Below, piece after piece: positions 6,978-29,726 of a stretch of 64,000 bases of DNA. Both the position numbers and the translations under genes were made by a program. The stretch covers positions 3,596,001 through 3,660,000 of the forward strand of contig NZ_CP118158.1 in the NCBI RefSeq assembly GCF_028747785.1. Reading direction: 5' to 3'. Position 1 is the first letter of the stretch. Each line of letters opens with the position of its first letter. This DNA is from Halosimplex aquaticum. GTDB taxonomy: Archaea > Halobacteriota > Halobacteria > Halobacteriales > Haloarculaceae. The notes beneath the pieces were generated by a model. That model was given only the letters and a program-made list of their open reading frames with translations. It was not told the origin of the DNA and ran no database searches.

Positions 6978-7349
6978 ATGGCTCTACCGGATCGACCAGT
7001 GAGTTCGTGGTTCCAGGGAATGGACCTGCCGAACCGACTGTTCGAGACGGGACGCAACGACTACGAACTGTACGAGGAAGACGGCGAGTTCGTACTGAGC
7101 GTCGAGCTACCCGGCTTCGACCCCGACGACATCGACGTGACGTGGCACGAGGGCGTTCTCAACGTCGCCGCGGAGCACGAAGACGAGACGCGCGGCCAGC
7201 GGAAGACGTACCATCGCCGGTTCCGCTTCCCGAAGGACGTCGACGACGAGGCGATCGCCGCGGAGTACTCCAACGGCATCCTCGACGTCCGCCTCCCCAT
7301 TTTCGAGGGCGCCGAGACCCGCGGCACGACCATCGAAGTCGAGAGCTGA
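6978..7349 (+). CDS. hsp20: Hsp20/alpha-crystallin family small heat-shock protein
   Basis: ATP-independent holdase chaperone of 123 residues. The alpha-crystallin domain occupies roughly residues 25-120: YELYEEDGEFVLSVELPGF is the first strand pair, and GVLNVAAEHED and YSNGILDVRLPIF are the later core strands with the family A-x-x-x-N-G-[IV]-L signature. The C-terminus lacks an obvious I-x-I motif, although TTIEVES approximates it. The N-terminus is short and contains WFQGMDLPNRLFE. It has its own TATA box and Shine-Dalgarno site. Confidence 0.95.
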   Translation: MALPDRPVSSWFQGMDLPNRLFETGRNDYELYEEDGEFVLSVELPGFDPDDIDVTWHEGVLNVAAEHEDETRGQRKTYHRRFRFPKDVDDEAIAAEYSNGILDVRLPIFEGAETRGTTIEVES

Positions 7350-7496
7350 CGCCGACTGCCGCCGGTCCGGGGCCGGGACAGCCCCGTGAGCGAACTCCCG
7401 AATCGGCGTCGAATCGTCGATATCGCGGTTTTTCGATGCGCCGTCGACGCGTCGACGAGAGCGGGTTTTAGGTGCCGGCGCCCGTTGGCGAGAGCG

Positions 7497-8477
7497 ATGA
7501 CCGACGATCCGGCCGACCGCACGCTCTCGCCCGACGAGGCGTTCGAGGTCCTCGGGAACGAGACGCGCGTCGACATCCTCCGGGCGCTCGGCGGGAGCGA
7601 CGACCCGGTAACGTTCTCCCGGCTCCGCGAGCGCGTCGGCATGACCGACTCCGGGCGATTCAACTACCACCTCGACCGCCTGACCGGCCACTTCGTCCGG
7701 AAGGGCGAGGACGGGTACGAGCTCCGGCGGGCCGGCGAGCGCGTCGTCGAGGCGGTCCTCTCCGGGGCGGTCACCGACGCGCCCGTGCTCGAACGGACGG
7801 AGATCGACCAGCCCTGCCACTACTGCGGCGCGCCGATCGCCGTCCGCTTCCGCGAGGAGCGCGTCGAGCTCTACTGCACGGAGTGCGCGGGAACGTACGC
7901 CCACACCGATCCGGGCGGCGAAACGTGCGCCGACGCCGACGCTGACGACGCCGACGACGCCGACTACGGCTACCTCGGGTACCACCCGCTCCCGCCCGCC
8001 GGCGTCGCCGACCGCGACCCCGAGGCCGTGTTCCGATCGGCCTGGGTCTGGGGCCACCTCGAACTACTCGCGGCGTCGGCGGGCGTCTGCCCGCGCTGCT
8101 CGGCGACGCTCGACCGCTCGACGCGGGTCTGCGAGGACCACGACCCGGACGCGGGGCTCTGTGGCGCCTGCGGTCGACGGTACGCCGTCGCGATCGACCT
8201 CGAATGCACGAACTGCATCTACGACGAGAGCGGGGCCGCCGTCGTCGGTCTCGCCGACTCGGCGCACCTCGTCGCCTTCCTGCTCGACAACGGGCTGAAC
8301 CCCTTCGCGCCGACCGCCGAGACGCTCCCCGCGATCGGCCGCGCGTACCACAACTTCGACGAGGAGGTCGTCTCGACTGACCCCTTCGAGGCGCGAGTTA
8401 CCTTCGCCGCGGGCGAGGACGAACTCACGCTGACGGTCGACAGCAGTCTGTCTGTCGTCGACGCCGAGCGACGCTGA
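7497..8477 (+). CDS. Winged-helix regulator with zinc-binding Cys pairs (DUF7351/DUF7347-like)
   Basis: Putative haloarchaeal transcriptional regulator of 326 residues. Residues 10-85 form an ArsR-like winged helix (FEVLGNETRVDILRAL, then a recognition segment with FNYHLDRL). Downstream are several Cys pairs (CHYCGAP, CTECAG, CPRCSA, CGACGR, CTNC), which probably bind two or more zinc ions. An acidic Ala/Asp tract (near residues 142-158) links the zinc modules. In-frame sequence extends back to 7386, but the ATG at 7497 begins right where homology to winged-helix regulators starts. Target genes are unknown. Confidence 0.82.
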   Translation: MTDDPADRTLSPDEAFEVLGNETRVDILRALGGSDDPVTFSRLRERVGMTDSGRFNYHLDRLTGHFVRKGEDGYELRRAGERVVEAVLSGAVTDAPVLERTEIDQPCHYCGAPIAVRFREERVELYCTECAGTYAHTDPGGETCADADADDADDADYGYLGYHPLPPAGVADRDPEAVFRSAWVWGHLELLAASAGVCPRCSATLDRSTRVCEDHDPDAGLCGACGRRYAVAIDLECTNCIYDESGAAVVGLADSAHLVAFLLDNGLNPFAPTAETLPAIGRAYHNFDEEVVSTDPFEARVTFAAGEDELTLTVDSSLSVVDAERR

Positions 8478-8556
8478 TCTCGCACGGCGGACCGACCTCG
8501 TCCGGCCTCCGGCGGCCGCCCCCTGGGTTTTTCGGTCGACCGCTCGTCGGGCCGGT

Positions 8557-9078
8557 ATGGACGAGTTCGCCGAGGACCCGCCGGTCGAGTCGCGCGTCGG
8601 TGACCTGCTCCGCGACCGCGGGGAGACCGTCGCCGTCGCCGAGACGGCCACGGGCGGCCTGGTCGGCGCGCTCCTCACGAGCGCACCCGGTGCGAGCGAC
8701 TACCTCGACCGCGTCGTCGTCCCCTACGACTACGACGCTCTCAGGACGACGCTGGCCGTCGCCCGCGAGACGCTCGACGAGCACGGCGCCGTCAGCGAGC
8801 CGGTCACGCGGGAACTCGCGCGGGCCGCCCGCGACACGGCCGACGCGACCTGGGGCGTCGCCACCGCGGGTATCGCCGGTCCCGATGGCGGCACCGAGGA
8901 GAAACCCGTCGGCACGTGCTTCGTCGGGGTCGCCTACGCCGGGCCGTGGGAGTCGGGCGATTCGACCGCGACCGTCGCGCGCTACGAGTTCGACGGCGAC
9001 CGCGCGGCGGTCCGCGAGCGGCTCGCACGCCGCGCGCTCGCCGACCTCGAACGCGCCGCCCGCGACCGCTCCGAGTGA
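8557..9078 (+). CDS. CinA C-terminal family (PncC-like) amidohydrolase
   Basis: Protein of 173 residues equal to the CinA C-terminal domain, which in characterised members deamidates nicotinamide mononucleotide. Matching motifs are AETATGG (family AESCTGG), the HGAVSEPV segment, and TAGIAGPDGGTEEKPVG. The first motif has Thr where many members have Ser. There is no N-terminal MoaB/CinA domain, so it is a stand-alone amidase. The start ATG at 8557 lies 79 bp after the previous gene with a T-rich stretch about 30 bp upstream. Confidence 0.87.
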   Translation: MDEFAEDPPVESRVGDLLRDRGETVAVAETATGGLVGALLTSAPGASDYLDRVVVPYDYDALRTTLAVARETLDEHGAVSEPVTRELARAARDTADATWGVATAGIAGPDGGTEEKPVGTCFVGVAYAGPWESGDSTATVARYEFDGDRAAVRERLARRALADLERAARDRSE

Positions 9079-9154
9079 TACCGCGACCCCTGCTTCGCTC
9101 GACGGGCACACCGAAGGGGAACACTTGTCACCCCGCCGTCCGTCGATACCGCCG

Positions 9155-9637
9155 ATGAACAAGCGCGGTCACGTGTTGAACGCGGTCTTCCTCGCCGTCG
9201 GCCTCGGCTTCATCCTCGAACCGGCCGGCGACGCGGCGACCTTCCGGACCGTCGCGGCGGTGTTCGTCCCGCTGGTCCTCGGCGCCCTCTTCCCCGACGT
9301 CGACACGCACTTCGGCAAACACCGCAAGACGCTCCACAATCTCTTCGTCCTCGGCATCGTCGCCGCCTACCCCGTCTACTTCTCCAACCTCCACTGGGTC
9401 TGGCTGGGCGTCCTCTCGCACTACGTGCTCGACGTGCTGGGCACCACCCGCGGGATCGCCCTGTTCTACCCGCTGTGGGACGAGGAGTTCGGCGCGCCCG
9501 TCGGCGTCCCCGTCAGCAGCGACTTCTCCGACGCGATGATGCTCGCGGTGACCGCCTTCGAACTCACGGTCGCCGCCGGCCTCGTCTACGTGCTCCCGAA
9601 CTACCTCCCCGACCTGAGCGGGTCGCTCCCGGTCTGA
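9155..9637 (+). CDS. DUF457/YdjM-type membrane-bound metal-dependent hydrolase
   Basis: Integral membrane protein of 160 residues with four hydrophobic segments. His/Asp motifs typical of the family are GHVLNA at the N-terminus, FPDVDTHFGKHRKTLHN near residue 47 and SHYVLDVLG near residue 88. These would form a membrane-proximal metal site. Homologues are often called LexA-binding inner-membrane hydrolases, but the substrate is unknown. The start at 9155 puts GHVLNA at residue 5, as in relatives. Confidence 0.83.
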   Translation: MNKRGHVLNAVFLAVGLGFILEPAGDAATFRTVAAVFVPLVLGALFPDVDTHFGKHRKTLHNLFVLGIVAAYPVYFSNLHWVWLGVLSHYVLDVLGTTRGIALFYPLWDEEFGAPVGVPVSSDFSDAMMLAVTAFELTVAAGLVYVLPNYLPDLSGSLPV

Positions 9638-9695
9638 CCGACGACGGCCGCGAGCGGGGTCGACCGCCCGCCGAACTGCCGTTCGAGGGGGAATG

Positions 9696-9706
9696 TTTTT
9701 ATTAAG
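9696..9706 (+). promoter_or_regulatory. TATA element of the 9729 gene
   Basis: TTTTTATTAAG precedes the ATG at 9729 by about 25 bases, so the transcript would start at or next to the start codon. Confidence 0.6.
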
Positions 9707-9728
9707 GGGCCGGCATGTCTCGGATACG

Positions 9729-10034
9729 ATGGCCCCCTGGGAGTGTGCGATCGACGGCGACGACGACCAGTTCGAGCGCGTCGAGGACCTGATCGTCCAC
9801 CAGTCGACAGCACACGAACGCATCGAGTGCAAGGTCTGCGGGACCGTCCTCCCCGACGGCTACTTCGCGATCCGCCACGCGTTCGACGAGCACAGCCGCG
9901 CGGAGTACGTCCGCGCCTACGACGCCACCGCCAAGGAAGTCCGCCGCCGCGAGAACGTCAAAGAGACCATCGAGGACGAGGCCGACATCCGCGAGGTCAT
10001 CGACCGACTCGAAGGCGGCAGCGGCAGCCTCTGA
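9729..10034 (+). CDS. Small C2H2-like zinc-binding protein (DUF7565-like)
   Basis: Haloarchaeal protein of 101 residues. A zinc-finger-like arrangement is visible: Cys near residue 5, HQSTAH near residues 25-30, CKVCGTVLPDGYFAIRHAF with a Cys pair, then DEHS. The C-terminal 40 residues are a charged, helical, coiled-coil-like tail. A strong TATA box supports the leaderless ATG at 9729. Two upstream codons could start the same frame but would lie before the likely transcription start. Role unknown; a DNA- or RNA-binding role is inferred only from the finger. Confidence 0.78.
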   Translation: MAPWECAIDGDDDQFERVEDLIVHQSTAHERIECKVCGTVLPDGYFAIRHAFDEHSRAEYVRAYDATAKEVRRRENVKETIEDEADIREVIDRLEGGSGSL

Positions 10035-22947: not shown

Positions 22948-23154
22948 TCATCCATCACTAACTATGTCAATTGAGGCGAATTCGATTGTCGATAGTTCTT
23001 CGATACTGAATGGAATATAATTTCCGTCCACTGGACATTCCAGCAGTCTCCGTTTGAATCCCTCGGCAATGACGCTCCGCCTCACGGATTTCGATTTGTA
23101 ATCGGAACGGTCTCGAGTATTCAATTTGTCGCGGGAGATCTCACCAGGCGGTCG
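22948..23154 (-). pseudogene. Decayed intergenic coding unit X, copy 1
   Basis: The frame that ends at TGA 22948 is open back to the stop of L2 and carries PFSIEELSTIEFASIDIV near its end. The same segment recurs upstream of L4 and L5 (24541-24600 and 25329-25380), always just before a lipoprotein start. Copy 1 has no convincing start codon and is about 66 codons, so it looks like the 3' part of a lost gene. Confidence 0.45.
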
Positions 23155-23670
23155 TCAGGGCGCCGACTCTAACTTCTCACAGGACAAATTGTATTTGCAG
23201 TCGCGCCAGGACCGTTCGAAGAAGTGAAATTGTGTATCGGTATCCCCGGTGAGCGTCTGGACTGCCAGGTACTGGTTTCCATCAGAAACGAGGCCTTCAA
23301 ATACGTATACGTAGTTGTTCGGAGTCGTTATTCGTTCTGGCTGCAGGAGCATTTGTTCCGGTTGCTCCGGGAGAGATACTGTAACGTTCTTGCGATAGCT
23401 CTGGTTTGAGCTCAGTGTACCAATGTTCTCTCGGCCTAAGATTCGTTGGTGTTCACCAACGAATACGATAGAGACGTTCCGAACGACAACAGGGCCATAG
23501 CTACCACCGATATAGGTTTCCAAAGTGATCTCTTGGGCCTGATCACTCTCTTCGGTATCTTGAATTTCCAGCCCGATGGTCCAAGAGAGTTCGTTTTGAG
23601 TAATGCAACCAGATGTCACTAAAAGCAAGGCGAATACTATTGCGATCCCTGTTGTTCTGTTTGGTGTCAC
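23155..23670 (-). CDS. Small lipoprotein, diverged array member L2
   Basis: Lipoprotein of 171 residues. The signal peptide ends LLLVTSGC. The mature part keeps the array plan (PVVVRNVSIVFVGEHQRILGRENIGTLSS, then VSLPEQPEQMLL) but is the most diverged member, and it has a longer C-terminus with two extra Cys residues (DCKYNLSCEK) that could form a disulphide. Several N-x-S/T sites suggest surface glycosylation. Start ATG at 23670. Unknown function. Confidence 0.68.
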   Translation of the reverse strand: MTPNRTTGIAIVFALLLVTSGCITQNELSWTIGLEIQDTEESDQAQEITLETYIGGSYGPVVVRNVSIVFVGEHQRILGRENIGTLSSNQSYRKNVTVSLPEQPEQMLLQPERITTPNNYVYVFEGLVSDGNQYLAVQTLTGDTDTQFHFFERSWRDCKYNLSCEKLESAP

Positions 23671-23734
23671 TGGATATAGTATTACTTTGATACGAACTGT
23701 TTCTATGTTTTGAATTTGCCTCTTAGATTCATCT

Positions 23735-24000
23735 CAGCTATTCGCGGAGACGTTGATGGTCCCGACAGGCACCTCCTGCAGAACCGATTTCTCGTCTGTC
23801 AGAAACTGAACCGCCACGTCGTGAAGTGTGACGTTCGTCATGAATCCGCCGGTGTACACCTAGACGGTGGACACGACCTACGAATTGGAGTCGGCCACGT
23901 GATCTCCCGCCGCGTAGAGGGTTCACTCTCGCTCCTGCGGGACGTGGCATCCGGCTGGTAAGGCGAGTACCAGCAAGACAATGAGGAGTGTTCGTTTCAT
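23735..24000 (-). pseudogene. Array member L3, killed by nonsense mutations
   Basis: From ATG 24000 a signal peptide with lipobox LPAGC is followed, in one uninterrupted phase, by sequence aligning to L4: stop-TL for the WTV position, STV-stop-VYTGG for TTVQFTLEG, then VTLHDVAVQFLTDEKSVLQE. The stops fall at positions where L4 has Trp or Gln and each needs only one transition (TGG to TGA, CAG to TAG). The C-terminal third is missing, overtaken by the L2 leader. Confidence 0.65.
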
Positions 24001-24066
24001 GAGTAGGCTACCTGTAGGTGTATTCGACGTCTTTAGGAAGGGGAGTGTTGCGCGGCCAGATAGCTG

Positions 24067-24510
24067 TTAGTACCTCGCCGTGTACTCTGTATGGGTGACG
24101 TACCGATACTGGCCTTCTCCACCACCTTCGAGCCGTAATCCGACGACACCGCCGTCGGAGTCAGTGGGCCGTTCGACGCTGTCGTACCGCATGTTGATGT
24201 AATGCGGTTTCGTTGGCGTGGTCACAGTAAACGACTGGCCCTCACCCCAATCGACCTCGACGGTGCCCAAGGCGGTTTCGTTGAGTACAGTCTCGTTTTG
24301 AGTGAGGAACAGGACTTTGACCCCGTCCAGAACCACTGGACTCGCGTCCCCCTCTAGCGTGAACTGGACGGTCGTCGAGTGCCCATCATCGGTCTGGACA
24401 CTGTCTGCTACCTCCGGAGCGACTGTCCACCCCTTCGGCTCGTTCCCGACCTGGTGGCAGCCGGCAGTCAAGACGAGGAGGACAACGAGATACTTTGAGT
24501 ATCGGCTCAT
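24067..24510 (-). CDS. Small lipoprotein, array member L4
   Basis: Lipoprotein of 147 residues with signal peptide MSRYSKYLVVLLVLTAGC. The mature domain shows the array consensus clearly: WTVAPEVADSVQTDDG, VQFTLEG, PVVLDGVKVLFLTQNETVLNETALGTV, FTVTTPTKPHYINMRYDSVERPTD, GGVVGLRLEG, and a final EGQYRYVTHTEYTARY. It is closely related to L6 and L7. Genes in the array are all on the minus strand, so one transcript is possible. Unknown function. Confidence 0.72.
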   Translation of the reverse strand: MSRYSKYLVVLLVLTAGCHQVGNEPKGWTVAPEVADSVQTDDGHSTTVQFTLEGDASPVVLDGVKVLFLTQNETVLNETALGTVEVDWGEGQSFTVTTPTKPHYINMRYDSVERPTDSDGGVVGLRLEGGGEGQYRYVTHTEYTARY

Positions 24511-24864
24511 TGTCGACTTGTTTTATTATTCTCACCATCTCGATGGTATTGAATTCGATCGTCGATAGCTATTCGAGGCTGAAACCAATGGCATTCTCGC
24601 TCGTCAGTGGAACATCGAGGTCGTCAGCCTAGCCGCGAGCCACGAAGGTCCCGATGCCGAACACGCCCACCTGCTACTTTTGGGTCGTATGGGTCCCAAT
24701 CAAACCTATTCGATATCAGCTCCGCGTCCGGGTGAGATTACGGCAGAGAACACGACGTGGTAGATACCAGCGTCGACAACAGCCACTAGACTGCCGATTA
24801 GCGAGTTTCGAGCAGGGATATCTGTCTCAACGTTCCTCGCCGTTCGATACTCAGAAGCTCACCG
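24511..24864 (-). pseudogene. Decayed intergenic coding unit X, copy 2
   Basis: This 354-bp gap has no intact gene. On the minus strand, coding-like fragments appear in shifting phases: IPARNSLIGSLVAVVDAG, then a FDWDPYDPKVAGG segment, then FGIGTFVARG, and finally DDLDVPLTSENAIGFSLE, a stop, and LSTIEFNTIEMV. The last piece aligns with the X motif of copy 1 (FSIEELSTIEF). It looks like a once-real gene broken by frameshifts and stops. Confidence 0.45.
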
Positions 24865-25329
24865 TTAGTATTCTGGGTCGTAGTCTGAATACGTCCTGTA
24901 CCGGTGGGCCCCCTCGTATTTATCAGTCAAACGCAAACCGATAGCGCCCCCGGCTGCGTTTGAAGGTTGACGTAGTGAGTCATACATGAAATTGATATAG
25001 TGGGGCCGCTGTGGAAGCGTGACGCTGAAGTTGTGATATTCCGTCTCAAGTTCGTAGGACATTGTTCCGATGCTTTGGTTCTCGATAACACGGTTTTCAG
25101 CGGAGAGGAAGACAGCCTTGACGCCCGTGAGTTTCACTCCCTCACCTTGTCCCTGAATAGAGACAGTTACTGTCATATTGACCTCGGAGTCCGTCTGGGA
25201 AATACGTTCCACGTCGCCTTCCAGTGTCCACGATCGAGGACTGGCGTGACAGCCCGCGAGAGCAATCAGCAGACAGACTGCTATTACTACCATTATCTCG
25301 CTATGACGCATTGCTTTTAATGGTGTCAA
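24865..25329 (-). CDS. Small lipoprotein, array member L5
   Basis: Lipoprotein of 148-154 residues. Starting at the inner Met (25311) gives the leader MRHSEIMVVIAVCLLIALAGC with a good lipobox; the ATG at 25329 adds six residues. The mature part has RSWTLEGDVERISQTD, VKLTGVKAVFLSAENRVIENQSIGTM, FSVTLPQRPHYINFMYDSLRQPS and GGAIGLRLTDKYEGAHRY. The start overlaps the end of X copy 3. Unknown function. Confidence 0.7.
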   Translation of the reverse strand: MTPLKAMRHSEIMVVIAVCLLIALAGCHASPRSWTLEGDVERISQTDSEVNMTVTVSIQGQGEGVKLTGVKAVFLSAENRVIENQSIGTMSYELETEYHNFSVTLPQRPHYINFMYDSLRQPSNAAGGAIGLRLTDKYEGAHRYRTYSDYDPEY

Positions 25330-25505
25330 TGTTTCCTAACTCGACGGGCAGTAGCTCCTCGATGCTGAATGCCGCTGGATACTTCACCGACCGGATCGAG
25401 TCTCACACCGTCATCTTTCCGTCCGGCGCCGATGATATTGGCTGTCATCTGGGTGCCTCCCGTGGCGTATCGGTACTGATCATCTGGAATCAGCATTGGA
25501 GCTAC
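25315..25505 (-). pseudogene. Decayed intergenic coding unit X, copy 3
   Basis: In one phase the minus strand reads SVKYPAAFSIEELLPVELGN, closing with a TAG just inside L5. In another phase a DDQYRYATGGTQMTANIIGA segment lies upstream. Both recall pieces of copies 1 and 2, but a stop and a phase change separate them. Bases just after the L6 stop also resemble those after the L7 stop. Confidence 0.42.
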
Positions 25506-25964
25506 TCAGTAGCTCCGGGTGTAATTCTCGTATGAGAAGTACGTATATTCTCCCTCCGCGTTCTGCTGCAAGCGCAGCCCGTTAACGCCGCCGACGGCGT
25601 CGGTCGGCCGCTTGACTTCGTCGTACTTCAGGTACACGTAGTGCGGTTTGGCCGGTGTAACGACGGTAAACTGATTATTCGTCTCCTCCTCCCAGTCAAA
25701 CCTGATCGCCCCCAGCGTGGTTTCGTTCAGTAGCGTCTTGTTTGCGGTCAGAAACCGTACTTTGACTCCATTCAAGACGACTGGTGCCGTCGTCCCTCCT
25801 AGATTGAACTCAACTGTCGTCGTATATCTCCCATTGGTTTGAGCAGTCTCATTGATCACAGGAGACAGAGTCCATCTATCGTTTTCAACTCCGACCTGAT
25901 GGCAGCCAGCGGTCACGATGAGGAGCGCAACGAGGCACGTCCGACAGAGAGGCAGCATACGCAT
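25506..25964 (-). CDS. Small lipoprotein, array member L6
   Basis: Lipoprotein of 152 residues with signal peptide ending CLVALLIVTAGC. The array consensus is complete: DRWTLSPVINETAQTNG, VEFNLGG, PVVLNGVKVRFLTANKTLLNETTLGAI, FTVVTPAKPHYVYLKYDEVKRPTD, GGVNGLRLQQNAEGEYTY, ending YENYTRSY. It is closest to L7. The 162-bp gap upstream has coding-like traces (DVFSATERSAKEGS) that may be a further X remnant. Unknown function. Confidence 0.72.
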   Translation of the reverse strand: MRMLPLCRTCLVALLIVTAGCHQVGVENDRWTLSPVINETAQTNGRYTTTVEFNLGGTTAPVVLNGVKVRFLTANKTLLNETTLGAIRFDWEEETNNQFTVVTPAKPHYVYLKYDEVKRPTDAVGGVNGLRLQQNAEGEYTYFSYENYTRSY

Positions 25965-26126
25965 CTCTGTTTGACAGGAGTTTCATTTAATTCAACTGTT
26001 ACGGATCCTTCTTTGGCTGAACGCTCTGTCGCACTGAAAACGTCTCTCAGGTACTGACCGGTAATACTGGATGTCTCCTGGGTGCTTTTCGTAACATGTC
26101 ACTGTTGGAACCAACACAAGAGCTAC

Positions 26127-26573
26127 TCAGTACTCAGCCGTGTAGTTTCTATATGAGCTATATCGGTACTCACCTTCTGCACTCTGTCGCAAGCGCAACC
26201 CGCTGACGCCGCCGACGGCATCGGTAGGTTGCTCAACCTCGTCGTACTTCAGGTACACGTAATATGGCCGCTCCGGTGTGGAGACGTTGAACTGATGAAG
26301 TGCTCCCCGCTCGAATCGGACTGTTCCTAGTGTCGTCTCGTTAAGAATGACCTCTTCCGCGGTCAAGAACTCTACTTTGACGCCTTTCAGAACAACAGGT
26401 GAGACGTCTTCTTCCAGTTCGAATTGGACCGATGTCGTGTAATTACCGTCACTCTGGACGCTACCTGCAATCTCTGATCCCACGCCCCATACCTTCTCTT
26501 GGGGCCCCAGCTCATGGCACCCGGCAGTTACCACTAGAATTGCTATAATACGCTTGTTCAATTTACTAGCCAT
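26127..26573 (-). CDS. Small lipoprotein, array member L7
   Basis: Lipoprotein of 148 residues with leader MASKLNKRIIAILVVTAGC. The mature region follows L6 closely: KVWGVGSEIAGSVQSDG, VQFELEE, PVVLKGVKVEFLTAEEVILNETTLGTV, FNVSTPERPYYVYLKYDEVEQPTD, GGVSGLRLRQSAEGEYRY. Its ATG overlaps the stop of the disrupted L8 gene by eight bases, a sign of translational coupling within one operon. Unknown function. Confidence 0.73.
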   Translation of the reverse strand: MASKLNKRIIAILVVTAGCHELGPQEKVWGVGSEIAGSVQSDGNYTTSVQFELEEDVSPVVLKGVKVEFLTAEEVILNETTLGTVRFERGALHQFNVSTPERPYYVYLKYDEVEQPTDAVGGVSGLRLRQSAEGEYRYSSYRNYTAEY

Positions 26574-26861
26574 TTATTTTCACCGAGGATGGGGCGGTGG
26601 AGCAACCAAGTGTCACCGTGGTCGTCTCCGAGGGGGCCAGCGTTCCGATCGTTGCCCGACATAGTTCAGGCTCAGGACTGTCATATCCGGCGACCTCGAC
26701 GTTGTGGAAAGCTGCCCAGTCGCCTTCAACGTTTTTGCTGCTCGCCTGGACAGCGATGTGGAGTTCGACAGCCCCGGGTTTCCGCGATGTCTCTATTGAG
26801 CCGTATCGGAGCGATCGTGATCGCGGCTCCATACAACCGGAGAGAACGGCTATAGTGGACG

Positions 26862-27353
26862 TTAGAAATAATTGCTCACCTTTGGAAGCGACAGTTGGTC
26901 GAGAGCAGTATCGATCGCGGTGGTCAGTTGCTCAAGCGAGTCGAAGAACCGGTTGCTGAGAGCGTTTTGGAGTTGTCGCCAGCACTCTTCGACAGGGTTG
27001 AGTTCCGGCGAATACGCCGGTAACGTGACGAAGGCGAGGTCGTCACGGGCCGCTAGGTCCGTGACGGCCGACGCCTGGAAGTACGGCGCACCATCTAATA
27101 CGACGATCAAGTCTTCTTCGAATTCTTCGCATAACGCGAGAATGAAATGTTTTGCATGATCGGCGGTGACGTACTCGGTGAACCGTGAGAAAAAACAGTC
27201 ACCGTCTTCGGTGATTGCGCCGAGCAGACACGTCCAGTCGCGTTGGCCGGACAATTCGACGCTCGGCCGCGTGCCGCGCGGAAACCACGCGGCACGCGGC
27301 TCGACTTGCACCGATTTCTTCGTCTGATCGATACAGACTATTTTGGCGTCCAT
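26862..27353 (-). CDS. IS630 transposase, second frame (DDE catalytic half)
   Basis: The frame of 163 residues starts at ATG 27353, inside the end of the first frame. DDE motifs are IVCIDQTKKS (Asp), IVVLDGAPYF (Asp) and SPELNPVEECWRQLQN (Glu), typical of IS630. It is most likely made as a fusion with the first frame by slippage at the A7 run at 27364-27370 rather than translated alone. It looks intact. Confidence 0.85.
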   Translation of the reverse strand: MDAKIVCIDQTKKSVQVEPRAAWFPRGTRPSVELSGQRDWTCLLGAITEDGDCFFSRFTEYVTADHAKHFILALCEEFEEDLIVVLDGAPYFQASAVTDLAARDDLAFVTLPAYSPELNPVEECWRQLQNALSNRFFDSLEQLTTAIDTALDQLSLPKVSNYF

Positions 27354-27862
27354 CTCCGCTCGCTTTTTTTGATCTCGTCGTGGAACTCTTCTTGGTCGGA
27401 TTCTTCAGCTTCGGCGGCTGTGCGGCGTGGTTTTTGATAACTCAATCCAGCTTCTTTCAACAGCCGCCGGCAGCTCGGATAGGAGTACTCGACATCGTAG
27501 GCGTCTTCGAGAAATTCCTGGACGAGCGCCGGCGTCCACGCCGGCGCGTCGATCCCGGCCTCTTCGGGCGGTTCGTGCACGGCTTGTTCGAACTCTTCTT
27601 GCTGTGATTCTGAGAGTTTTCGTTTTCTCCCGGATCGATGATCATCAGACACAGCTTGCTCAAGCGGTTCGTCCGTATCAAATCGCATCAGCCAGCTGTA
27701 GATCGTTCTTCGACCGGTGTCGTGCCACTCTGCAAGTTCGGATTGCGTTACGCCGTTTTTGTACGCAATTGCGGCTAACAACCGTTGTGTCGGCTTGTTT
27801 CCCTCGACGTTGTCGAGGGCGTCTTGGAGGTCTTCGACGGAGATCTCGTCGAGGTGGTCCAT
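27338..27862 (-). CDS. IS630 transposase, first frame (DNA-binding half) with slippage site
   Basis: The frame of 174 residues carries HTH motifs: QRLLAAIAYKNGVTQSELAEWHDTG-type and a second near YSYPSCRRLLKEAGL. It ends soon after IKKSERRWTPK. The run AAAAAAAG on the minus strand (A7 at 27364-27370) is a slippery site; reading one extra A converts the end to IKKKRAEMDAKIVC and joins the catalytic half. This two-frame arrangement is common in IS630 elements, so it is regarded as functional. Confidence 0.83.
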   Translation of the reverse strand: MDHLDEISVEDLQDALDNVEGNKPTQRLLAAIAYKNGVTQSELAEWHDTGRRTIYSWLMRFDTDEPLEQAVSDDHRSGRKRKLSESQQEEFEQAVHEPPEEAGIDAPAWTPALVQEFLEDAYDVEYSYPSCRRLLKEAGLSYQKPRRTAAEAEESDQEEFHDEIKKSERRWTPK

Positions 27863-27955: not shown

Positions 27956-28256
27956 ACGTCATTGGGAGTCGCTTGGTATCGATTGAAATGATCCAACTCA
28001 TCTAGCTAGAATCTCATCGTTCGGATCTCGGCGGATGGTTTGGCACGCCATCCTTGGCTGTAGATCGTATCGTCCTCTAGGCGCTCCTTTGCGTGTTCGC
28101 GGTATCTCGGAGAGCAACAGACACTTTATCCTCGCTCATTTAGGCGATGGTGACTTTCCGCTTGCATTCGAGGGCAATCGTCCCACGGATACTAGTGCCG
28201 CACGGGCGGAGGAACGTCGTCTCCGTGCGGGCCATCTCCGTCAGGGGTGACTGTAC
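27956..28256. other. Intergenic stretch without a recognisable gene
   Basis: These 301 bp lie between the L8 start and the L9 remnant. I see no lipobox, X motif or convincing frame on either strand. A direct continuation of the array's decayed spacer DNA is likely. Confidence 0.4.
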
Positions 28257-28659
28257 TTATTCTTGGAGAAAACTCTCGTAAGTGCCGGAATCCGTTCGGC
28301 GCGTTCCGTACAACTCGACGTCGACGTCAGTGCGTACCTCGCCGACTCGAATGACGACTCGCTCGGGGGGATTATCCAGCTTAACCGTGAATCCCTCTCG
28401 AAACGAGGAGTTGGGAATCCTCCCGATCTCTACGGCCTGCATCGTCGTCCCTGAGCTATTCGTGAAGACGACCCGGTATCCTCAATTTCAAACTCCCCCT
28501 GGTATTGTTGAAGGACTACAAGTTCGCCGGTGAATTCGATGGCGTCGTCTGTCGACTCTGTCGAAACGTTCTCGATGCTGACAGGCACTGACGTCTGTCC
28601 ACGCCCATCGCATCCCGCTATCGAGATGAGTAGTACACAAACAATGAGTAAGCGTATTC
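28257..28659 (-). pseudogene. Array member L9, cut by IS5-type copy B and frameshifted
   Basis: Reading inward from the left end of the IS on the minus strand gives RIRLLIVCVLLISIAGC, a lipoprotein signal whose start codon has been replaced by the element. The frame continues (VPVSIENVSTESTDDAIEFTGELVVL) and then shifts by one base near 28475 to VVFTNSSGTTMQAVEIGRIPNSSFREGF...PPERVVI. The second half matches the usual strand order of the array. Confidence 0.62.
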
Positions 28660-29726
28660 GAGGGTGTCATAGAAAGCCTCACACACGAGGACGCAGGGTG
28701 TTGGAACTGTGTCTACGAGCGCCAGCACCCTGCAAGAAGAGGGTTCTATCGACGAGTTCTTCAATGTCGTGGCTACCGAGACGCTCGCGTTGTTCGAGCA
28801 TCTTGAGTTCGACTTTTTCAGCGAGTTCGACGTGTTCGCCCCCGCTCGCCGGGGGCGAACACGAGACCACCACCCACCAGAACTCTTCCGAGCGTTCCTC
28901 CACTGCTACTACAAGGACATCTACGGCATTCGCCCGGTCACACGAGAACTCCAGAACACGGTCGTCTGGCTCAGCTGGCTTCGATCGACCGCCCTCAAGA
29001 GACGCGGTCGATCGCTTCCTCACCGACCTCGAACACGTCGTCGACGAAGTCTTCGACCACCTCGTCGAGCAGGCCGCCGCCCGCGGCCTGCTCGACATGA
29101 CCTACCGAATCGATTCGACGGACGTGCGAGCGATGCCATCCGACCCAGATGCGTCGAAGAACTACGACCCAACCGCTGAGGAGTACTATTACGGCTACGG
29201 CTGTACGATCGTCTCAACCGGCGCAAAGATCCCGATTGCAGCCGAGTTCACCGAGAGCAAACAAGCCGCAGAAGAGACGGCGATGCGCGTCACCCGTGAC
29301 GCGCTCGCCGTCGCCCAGCCGATCTGGATGCTCGGTGACAGCGCCTACGACACGCTCGACTGGCACGACCTCCTGCTGACCGCAGGAGTCGTGCCAATCG
29401 CCCCGTACAACCCGCGAAACACCGACGATCCGCTCAATATCAAGTACAGAGTCGAAGACCGCATCGAGAAACACAGTGACGAGATTCAGCTCAAACAGTC
29501 GATCCTAGACGAGACGTACAACCGCCGGAGTCAGGTCGAGCGAACGAACGATGCGGTCAAGGACTGCGGCCTCGGGACGCTACGCGCCCGAGGCCGCGTC
29601 CACGCCCGAGCGCAGGTGTTCCTTGCGCTCTGCGTTCGACTCGTCGTCGCCGTCACCAACTACGAACGAGGTGACAATCCGGGAAGCACCGTCATCACGG
29701 TATGAGATGGATTCTATGACACCCTC
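28660..29726. mobile_element. IS5-type insertion sequence, copy B (defective)
   Basis: Same element as copy A, in inverse orientation, with 15-bp terminal repeats at 28660-28674 and 29712-29726. The transposase gene on the plus strand has a two-base deletion. No target duplication is visible. The two copies face each other across about 17.5 kb. Confidence 0.87.
28709..29705 (+). pseudogene. IS5-type transposase, copy B, frameshifted
   Basis: The first part (GTG 28709 to about 28976) encodes EGSIDEFFNVVATETLALFE...NTVVWLS. Copy A continues SCGFDRPPSR with bases AGCTGTGGC, but here the sequence is AGCTGGC, two bases shorter, so the phase changes. The rest, GFDRPPSRDAV through MLGDSAYDTLDWHD and VERTNDAVKDCGLG, is open in another phase to 29705. 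All catalytic residues remain, so only the deletion disables it. Confidence 0.88.

Follow-up and report, generated by a model that had tools for sequence, protein, structure and literature searches.

The lipoprotein array and its X remnants

A stretch of 64,000 nucleotides from Halosimplex aquaticum (NCBI RefSeq assembly GCF_028747785.1, contig NZ_CP118158.1, positions 3,596,001 to 3,660,000), referred to here as the window, carries an array of related small lipoprotein genes, named L, with the broken remains of a second coding unit, named X, between them. Positions are those of the window, and the array features with coordinates below are on the minus strand. L1 (22515-22958) is an intact gene for an immunity-type lipoprotein, scoring 75 bits with the L profile and carrying the lipobox VAGC. 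The other intact genes are the more diverged L2 (23155-23670, 75 bits, TSGC), L3 (24067-24510, TAGC), L4 (24865-25329, LAGC), L5 (25506-25964, 72 bits, TAGC) and L6 (26127-26573, 63 bits, TAGC). A start codon and a lipobox are found in all six of these open genes.

The array is longer than originally described and holds at least nine L units, three of which are damaged. The translation at 23737-24000 is that of an L pseudogene with three internal stops (48.7 bits on read-through). The L relative at 26572-26871 (61.6 bits, profile positions 14-110) lacks its start and its C-terminal end and abuts an insertion sequence. A frameshifted relative in two pieces (33.4 and 20.2 bits) is located beyond that element at 28248-28660. 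The open reading frame at 26572-26832 was rejected as a separate gene and is an L relative.

Remains of X precede L1, L3 and L4, and none precede L2, L5 or L6. These are the genes called L1, L4 and L5 in the original prediction, where the decayed copy at 23737-24000 had been counted. Three related peptides had been pointed out just before the lipoprotein starts, and they are indeed present on the minus strand as FSIEELSTIEF, FSLE-stop-LSTIEF and FSIEELLPVEL upstream of 22958, 24510 and 25329, respectively. The remnant before L1 (22963-23094) covers roughly 45 residues at the end of the zincin C-terminal domain (X C-terminal profile, 29.7 bits, E 4.8e-8, positions 267-310 of 313), and its TGA overlaps the L1 start region. 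The remnant before L3 (24531-24642, ..GFSLE-stop-LSTIEFNTIE..) has in-frame stops and is 79% identical in nucleotides to the 3' end of a giant gene in G280, a genome of the same genus. The remnant before L4 (25319-25487) was recognized by the X C-terminal profile and is split over two frames (IIGAGRKDDG.. and FSIEELLPVEL..), with an internal deletion and loss of HExxH. A further piece at 24726-24868 is left from another module and comprises an X end and the start of its 190-amino-acid immunity-type partner (blastn, 74% identity to 8406-8548 of locus L015 in G280). What the window retains of X is scraps, interrupted by stops and frame breaks and shortened by deletions.

An IS630-type transposase in two overlapping frames (26862-27862; Pfam DDE_3 1.4e-38, HTH_33 1.3e-17) is inserted in the array, and L pieces flank it on both sides. 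A DDE_Tnp_1 transposase is found at 28530-29705, in or beside the array.

Detection of X in the window

The C-terminal 361 amino acids of one G280 protein were used as a tblastn query against the genome of the window. Exactly three spacers were matched, at 22963-23085 (E 1.4e-4), 24530-24643 (E 5.3e-5, with two TAG codons) and 25353-25445 (E 2.6e-3). Similarly, a profile was built from 37 X domains, none of them from the window, and was run against the read-through six-frame translation of the 64 kb. Its best three places were 22966-23091 (25.2 bits), 24539-24637 (11.9 bits) and 25319-25375 (7.2 bits), and the best score on the reversed window was 0.7 bits. The resemblance of the three spacers to X is thus beyond chance.

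Recurring pieces further upstream had also been proposed. One of them holds up, since GGTQMTANIIGA / GGTQMTANIIGAGRKDDG aligns to TIVHEVGHIIGAGRKDDG of an intact 529-amino-acid X protein in G280, with the catalytic HExxH gone and 90% DNA identity over 69 bp. The other, FDWDPYDPKVAGG, showed no similarity to X above noise with the X profile. The spacer at 25965-26126, before the gene that the original prediction called L6, was suggested as a fourth copy and gave no match to the X profile. The idea of two-gene modules with a decayed X and an open L is real, but X remains precede only three of the six open L genes.

Intact X and its pairing with L

In G280 (locus L015, minus strand), the first gene encodes a protein of 1,633 amino acids with a signal-peptide-like N-terminus and TSP3 repeats (Pfam TSP3_bac 2.1e-17). 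Its C-terminus reads HEIGHILGAGRADD ... WSVM ... FSLEELSTIEFNNIATV, and an 84% orthologue of the window L3 follows 10 bp downstream. Next come N-truncated relatives of this C-terminus, of 381, 529 and 707 amino acids, each followed by a small partner gene. One of these partners is the orthologue of the window L4 and follows the intact 529-amino-acid X. Intact X is present beside direct orthologues of two window lipoproteins in the same genus, and intact X-L pairs with orthologues of L3 and L4 are also found in Halosimplex carlsbadense and H. pelagicum. X is protein-coding, as had been proposed, but it is not a small separate gene. From its motifs (HExGH ... WSVM), it is a predicted zincin-type, metzincin-like domain that either forms the C-terminal end of a giant secreted protein or stands in a cassette derived from such a protein.

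The sequence searches found no giant with a zincin tail in the genome of the window. A second X-L array does occur there (locus L059, G000:C1:1566000-1582000, at 7246-9791 on the plus strand, about 1,573,000-1,575,800 of the contig). It contains one intact N-truncated X of 465 amino acids with its L, and further on an X and an L that are both broken.

A survey of 392 genomes of the order, with a threshold of E <= 1e-5 for X, detected X in 22 genomes and L in 33. The proposed search for intact X beside L homologues was positive, with L directly downstream in 43 of the 48 listed X matches, at gaps of -7 to 154 bp (most below 30, median about 11 bp). Conversely, 64 of 85 L matches are within 6 kb of an X. 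Intact pairs are carried by H. carlsbadense and H. pelagicum, and Haloarcula argentinensis is also a carrier. In a plasmid search, the sole match was in Halomicrobium mukohataei and is annotated as hypothetical.

X and L diverge together. The distances among X proteins correlate with those among their L partners (Mantel r 0.62, n=34), and the best of 5000 permutations reached 0.21. Within-locus partner shuffles, in which the organism is held fixed, gave at most 0.614 and never reached 0.62, so the co-divergence holds even within loci. Three X tail types are paired with three kinds of L, namely a Sec lipoprotein or transmembrane form, a Tat-type RR lipoprotein and an 'IDSPDFW' type. Standalone arrays of truncated X+L cassettes were found at loci L015/L081, L084, L082 and L059. 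The dense array at L082 (JAHENZ010000271.1) is on a contig binned into a bacterial metagenome-assembled genome, Salinivenus sp., and is either an inter-domain transfer or mis-binned haloarchaeal DNA.

L relatives are also present in genomes without any detected X (G082:C1:2686909-2694470; G204:C9 and C13; G045; G116). Such genes may pair with other tails or may be orphan immunity genes.

Properties of X and L and exchange of the giant tails

Seven positions are invariant in 24 aligned X sequences: E240, H243, G248, D251, E261, W288 and M291, in the numbering of the first sequence. Most of these sequences carry HExGH, and a W[ST][VI]M stretch is reminiscent of a Met-turn. X domains with EExGH that are still paired with L are located at L064:5628-6617, L074:7163-8152 and L076:5978-6967.

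The profile matches of X in the PDB are weak and are led by metzincins (fragilysin, trimerelysin, MMP-12 and snapalysin, E 0.009 upward). The AlphaFold model of X was used solely for the direction of its fold matches, and its best Foldseek matches are metzincins as well (ecarin, ADAM-8, archaemetzincin, fragilysin). X shares with fragilysin, snapalysin, reprolysins and archaemetzincin an HExxH helix followed by a glycine and the Met-turn-like segment. However, these enzymes have HExxHxxGxx[HD], whereas X has HExxHxxxxGxxDD and some members lack the first histidine. The spacing of X to the third ligand departs from the classic motif, so X is a possible member of the metzincins.

The predicted structure of L3 is an all-beta sandwich behind a signal helix, with a predicted local distance difference test score (pLDDT) of 86. 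Its fold had no significant match in the PDB (best E 0.0024, TM-score 0.34), and Pfam gave nothing significant on the window L proteins. The ratio of nonsynonymous to synonymous substitution (dN/dS) of L3 and L4 against their relatives is 0.16-0.27, with values of 0.17 for L3 and 0.16-0.18 for L4 among them, which reflects purifying selection on these two genes.

The tails of the giants are exchanged. The middle part of the G280 giant (residues 540-1180) has about 11 long relatives with 43-47% identity and without the zincin tail. Among 12 giants, the N-parts match in all 66 pairs and the last 220 amino acids in only seven, three of which are zincin-zincin pairs. A signal-peptide-like segment was present at each of the ten N-termini examined among X giants, and the ten giants have 10-14 DxDxDG repeats. 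A lipobox is found in 32 of 37 partners of X tails vs none of eight partners of giants with other tails. The contrast in lipoboxes points to an extracellular site of action for the protease tail, a place where it would be within reach of a lipoprotein. Pfam mostly found no match in the other C-termini and their downstream genes, and one non-zincin tail had a sub-threshold match to the nuclease model Mrr_cat_2. PADLOC gave no match. Loci L093-L103 encode giants with the common N-part and unrelated C-termini, most of them with a different small downstream gene, and are candidate new archaeal toxin/immunity pairs, mostly without a Pfam match.

Discussion

The region is probably what is left of a cassette array that belonged to a haloarchaeal polymorphic toxin system and has since decayed. 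The reading as polymorphic toxins is based on exchangeable tails, a tail-specific downstream gene, truncated cassettes and surplus partner genes. These are features of such systems as described by Zhang et al. 2012 (PMC3482391), along with adjacent immunity genes; metallopeptidase toxin domains exist among them, and classical systems are rare in archaea. The missing partner had been expected to hold the key to the function, and the pairing is probably of the toxin/immunity type.

In the intact form, a giant secreted protein with a signal peptide and TSP3 repeats carries the metzincin-like domain X at its C-terminus, a predicted zinc protease with which neighbouring cells would be attacked at their surface. 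The directly following L would be a surface-anchored beta-sandwich lipoprotein that binds and blocks the matching protease and so protects sister cells. N-truncated X+L cassettes, stacked in tandem behind the giant, may be a reserve from which other toxin tails and immunities can be drawn. X has been deleted and broken by stops in the window, an insertion sequence has invaded the locus, and the L genes remain, plausibly as orphan immunity that protects against neighbours still producing the toxin. Most likely, the window L proteins once protected the archaeon against giant secreted toxins with a protein-cutting tail. The chances are about even that X represents a class of envelope-cleaving, metzincin-like toxins at the archaeal surface, with a lipid-anchored inhibitor as immunity in the same compartment as the toxin, while no lipobox occurs in the partners that go with other tails on this scaffold. 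In that case the window would hold a purely defensive set of orphan surface immunities.

Several observations weigh against this interpretation. Three of the 24 aligned X sequences have EExxH, with the first histidine changed to glutamate; these members may be altered or inactive, and not all X need be active. The X model is poor (pLDDT 50.5), and the Pfam and NCBIfam matches of X are below threshold (Reprolysin_3, 14.5 bits against a cut-off of 22.4; fragilysin, 12.4 against 190.7). About a quarter of the L matches (21 of 85) are away from any X. The low dN/dS of the L genes may also date from selection before X decayed.

Another reading is that the whole window array is dead, a relic in which the L genes no longer provide immunity and have merely not decayed so far. 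One L with three stops, one truncated at the insertion sequence and one frameshifted, together with the loss of X, agree with it. It is nevertheless doubtful, given six fully open L genes with start and lipobox and the dN/dS values of two of them, next to adjoining X genes that are scraps. Somewhat less probable still is that X serves nutrition or surface remodelling as an ordinary protease, secreted or at the surface, with L as an anchored inhibitor or chaperone on the producer and the arrays as family expansions. Protease-inhibitor gene pairs are common, and L resembles Ig-like (immunoglobulin-like) sandwiches and, weakly, the intracellular proteinase inhibitor of B. subtilis (rank 36, E 0.023). 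However, an ordinary protease is at odds with a single giant N-part that bears unrelated C-termini and different downstream genes, with tandem N-truncated X cassettes that lack signal and repeats, and with the joint diversification of X and L within one locus. L is also kept where X is lost, and together these points are hallmarks of polymorphic toxins.

That the peptides are conserved only as DNA, for example as a leader with a regulatory or translational role ahead of each lipoprotein gene, has next to no probability left. Their position immediately upstream of the L starts, with stop and start overlapping, would suit a leader, but they align in frame to the C-termini of X proteins that are long and uninterrupted in many genomes and are matched best by a protein profile, and L2, L5 and L6 have no such segment. 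The intact X genes already refute the leader, and X is protein-coding.

The proposed decayed polymorphic toxin array can be compared with known systems. Like polymorphic toxin systems, including the RHS and CdiA types, X-L has a secreted multi-domain protein, an exchangeable C-terminal domain, an adjacent immunity-type gene, standalone cassettes and extra immunity-type genes. In contrast to RHS/CdiA, the scaffold of the X giant is rich in TSP3 and is neither RHS nor FilH; TSP3_bac is the sole Pfam match above cut-off in the 1,633-amino-acid giant. Unlike known polymorphic toxins, the X protease domain matches no Pfam or NCBIfam toxin model, and L is a lipoprotein family without a Pfam model. 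As cited in PMC8416519, Makarova et al. 2019 predicted large secreted archaeal proteins that are accompanied by arrayed C-terminal toxin modules and by immunity genes, and in the account given there DNases and RNases are the commonest of these toxins. X-L likewise has large secreted proteins with module arrays and differs from that description by its metzincin-like protease and surface lipoprotein. According to PMC8416519 (2021), experimental characterization of the predicted archaeal polymorphic toxins was still lacking at that time. The VARTIG modules of Thermococcales (PMC8416519) resemble X-L in that a long gene comes first and variable C-terminal paralogues, in the same orientation, come after it together with cognate membrane proteins. 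They are Ig-domain giants in which no toxin domain was found, whereas the X giant has no Ig domain in Pfam and has a protease-like C-terminus. Archaeal polymorphic toxins are thus known in principle, and a protease toxin with a surface-lipoprotein partner appears to be undescribed, although the 2019 survey, cited here through PMC8416519, may list such a subfamily.

Little work has been done on intercellular antagonism in archaea. X-L is a concrete, testable pair in named genomes of Halosimplex and Haloarcula. It supplies candidates for both the catalytic site and a surface inhibitor. The pairing would explain a lipoprotein family that has no Pfam model and would be an archaeal example in which the immunity genes have outlasted the toxins.
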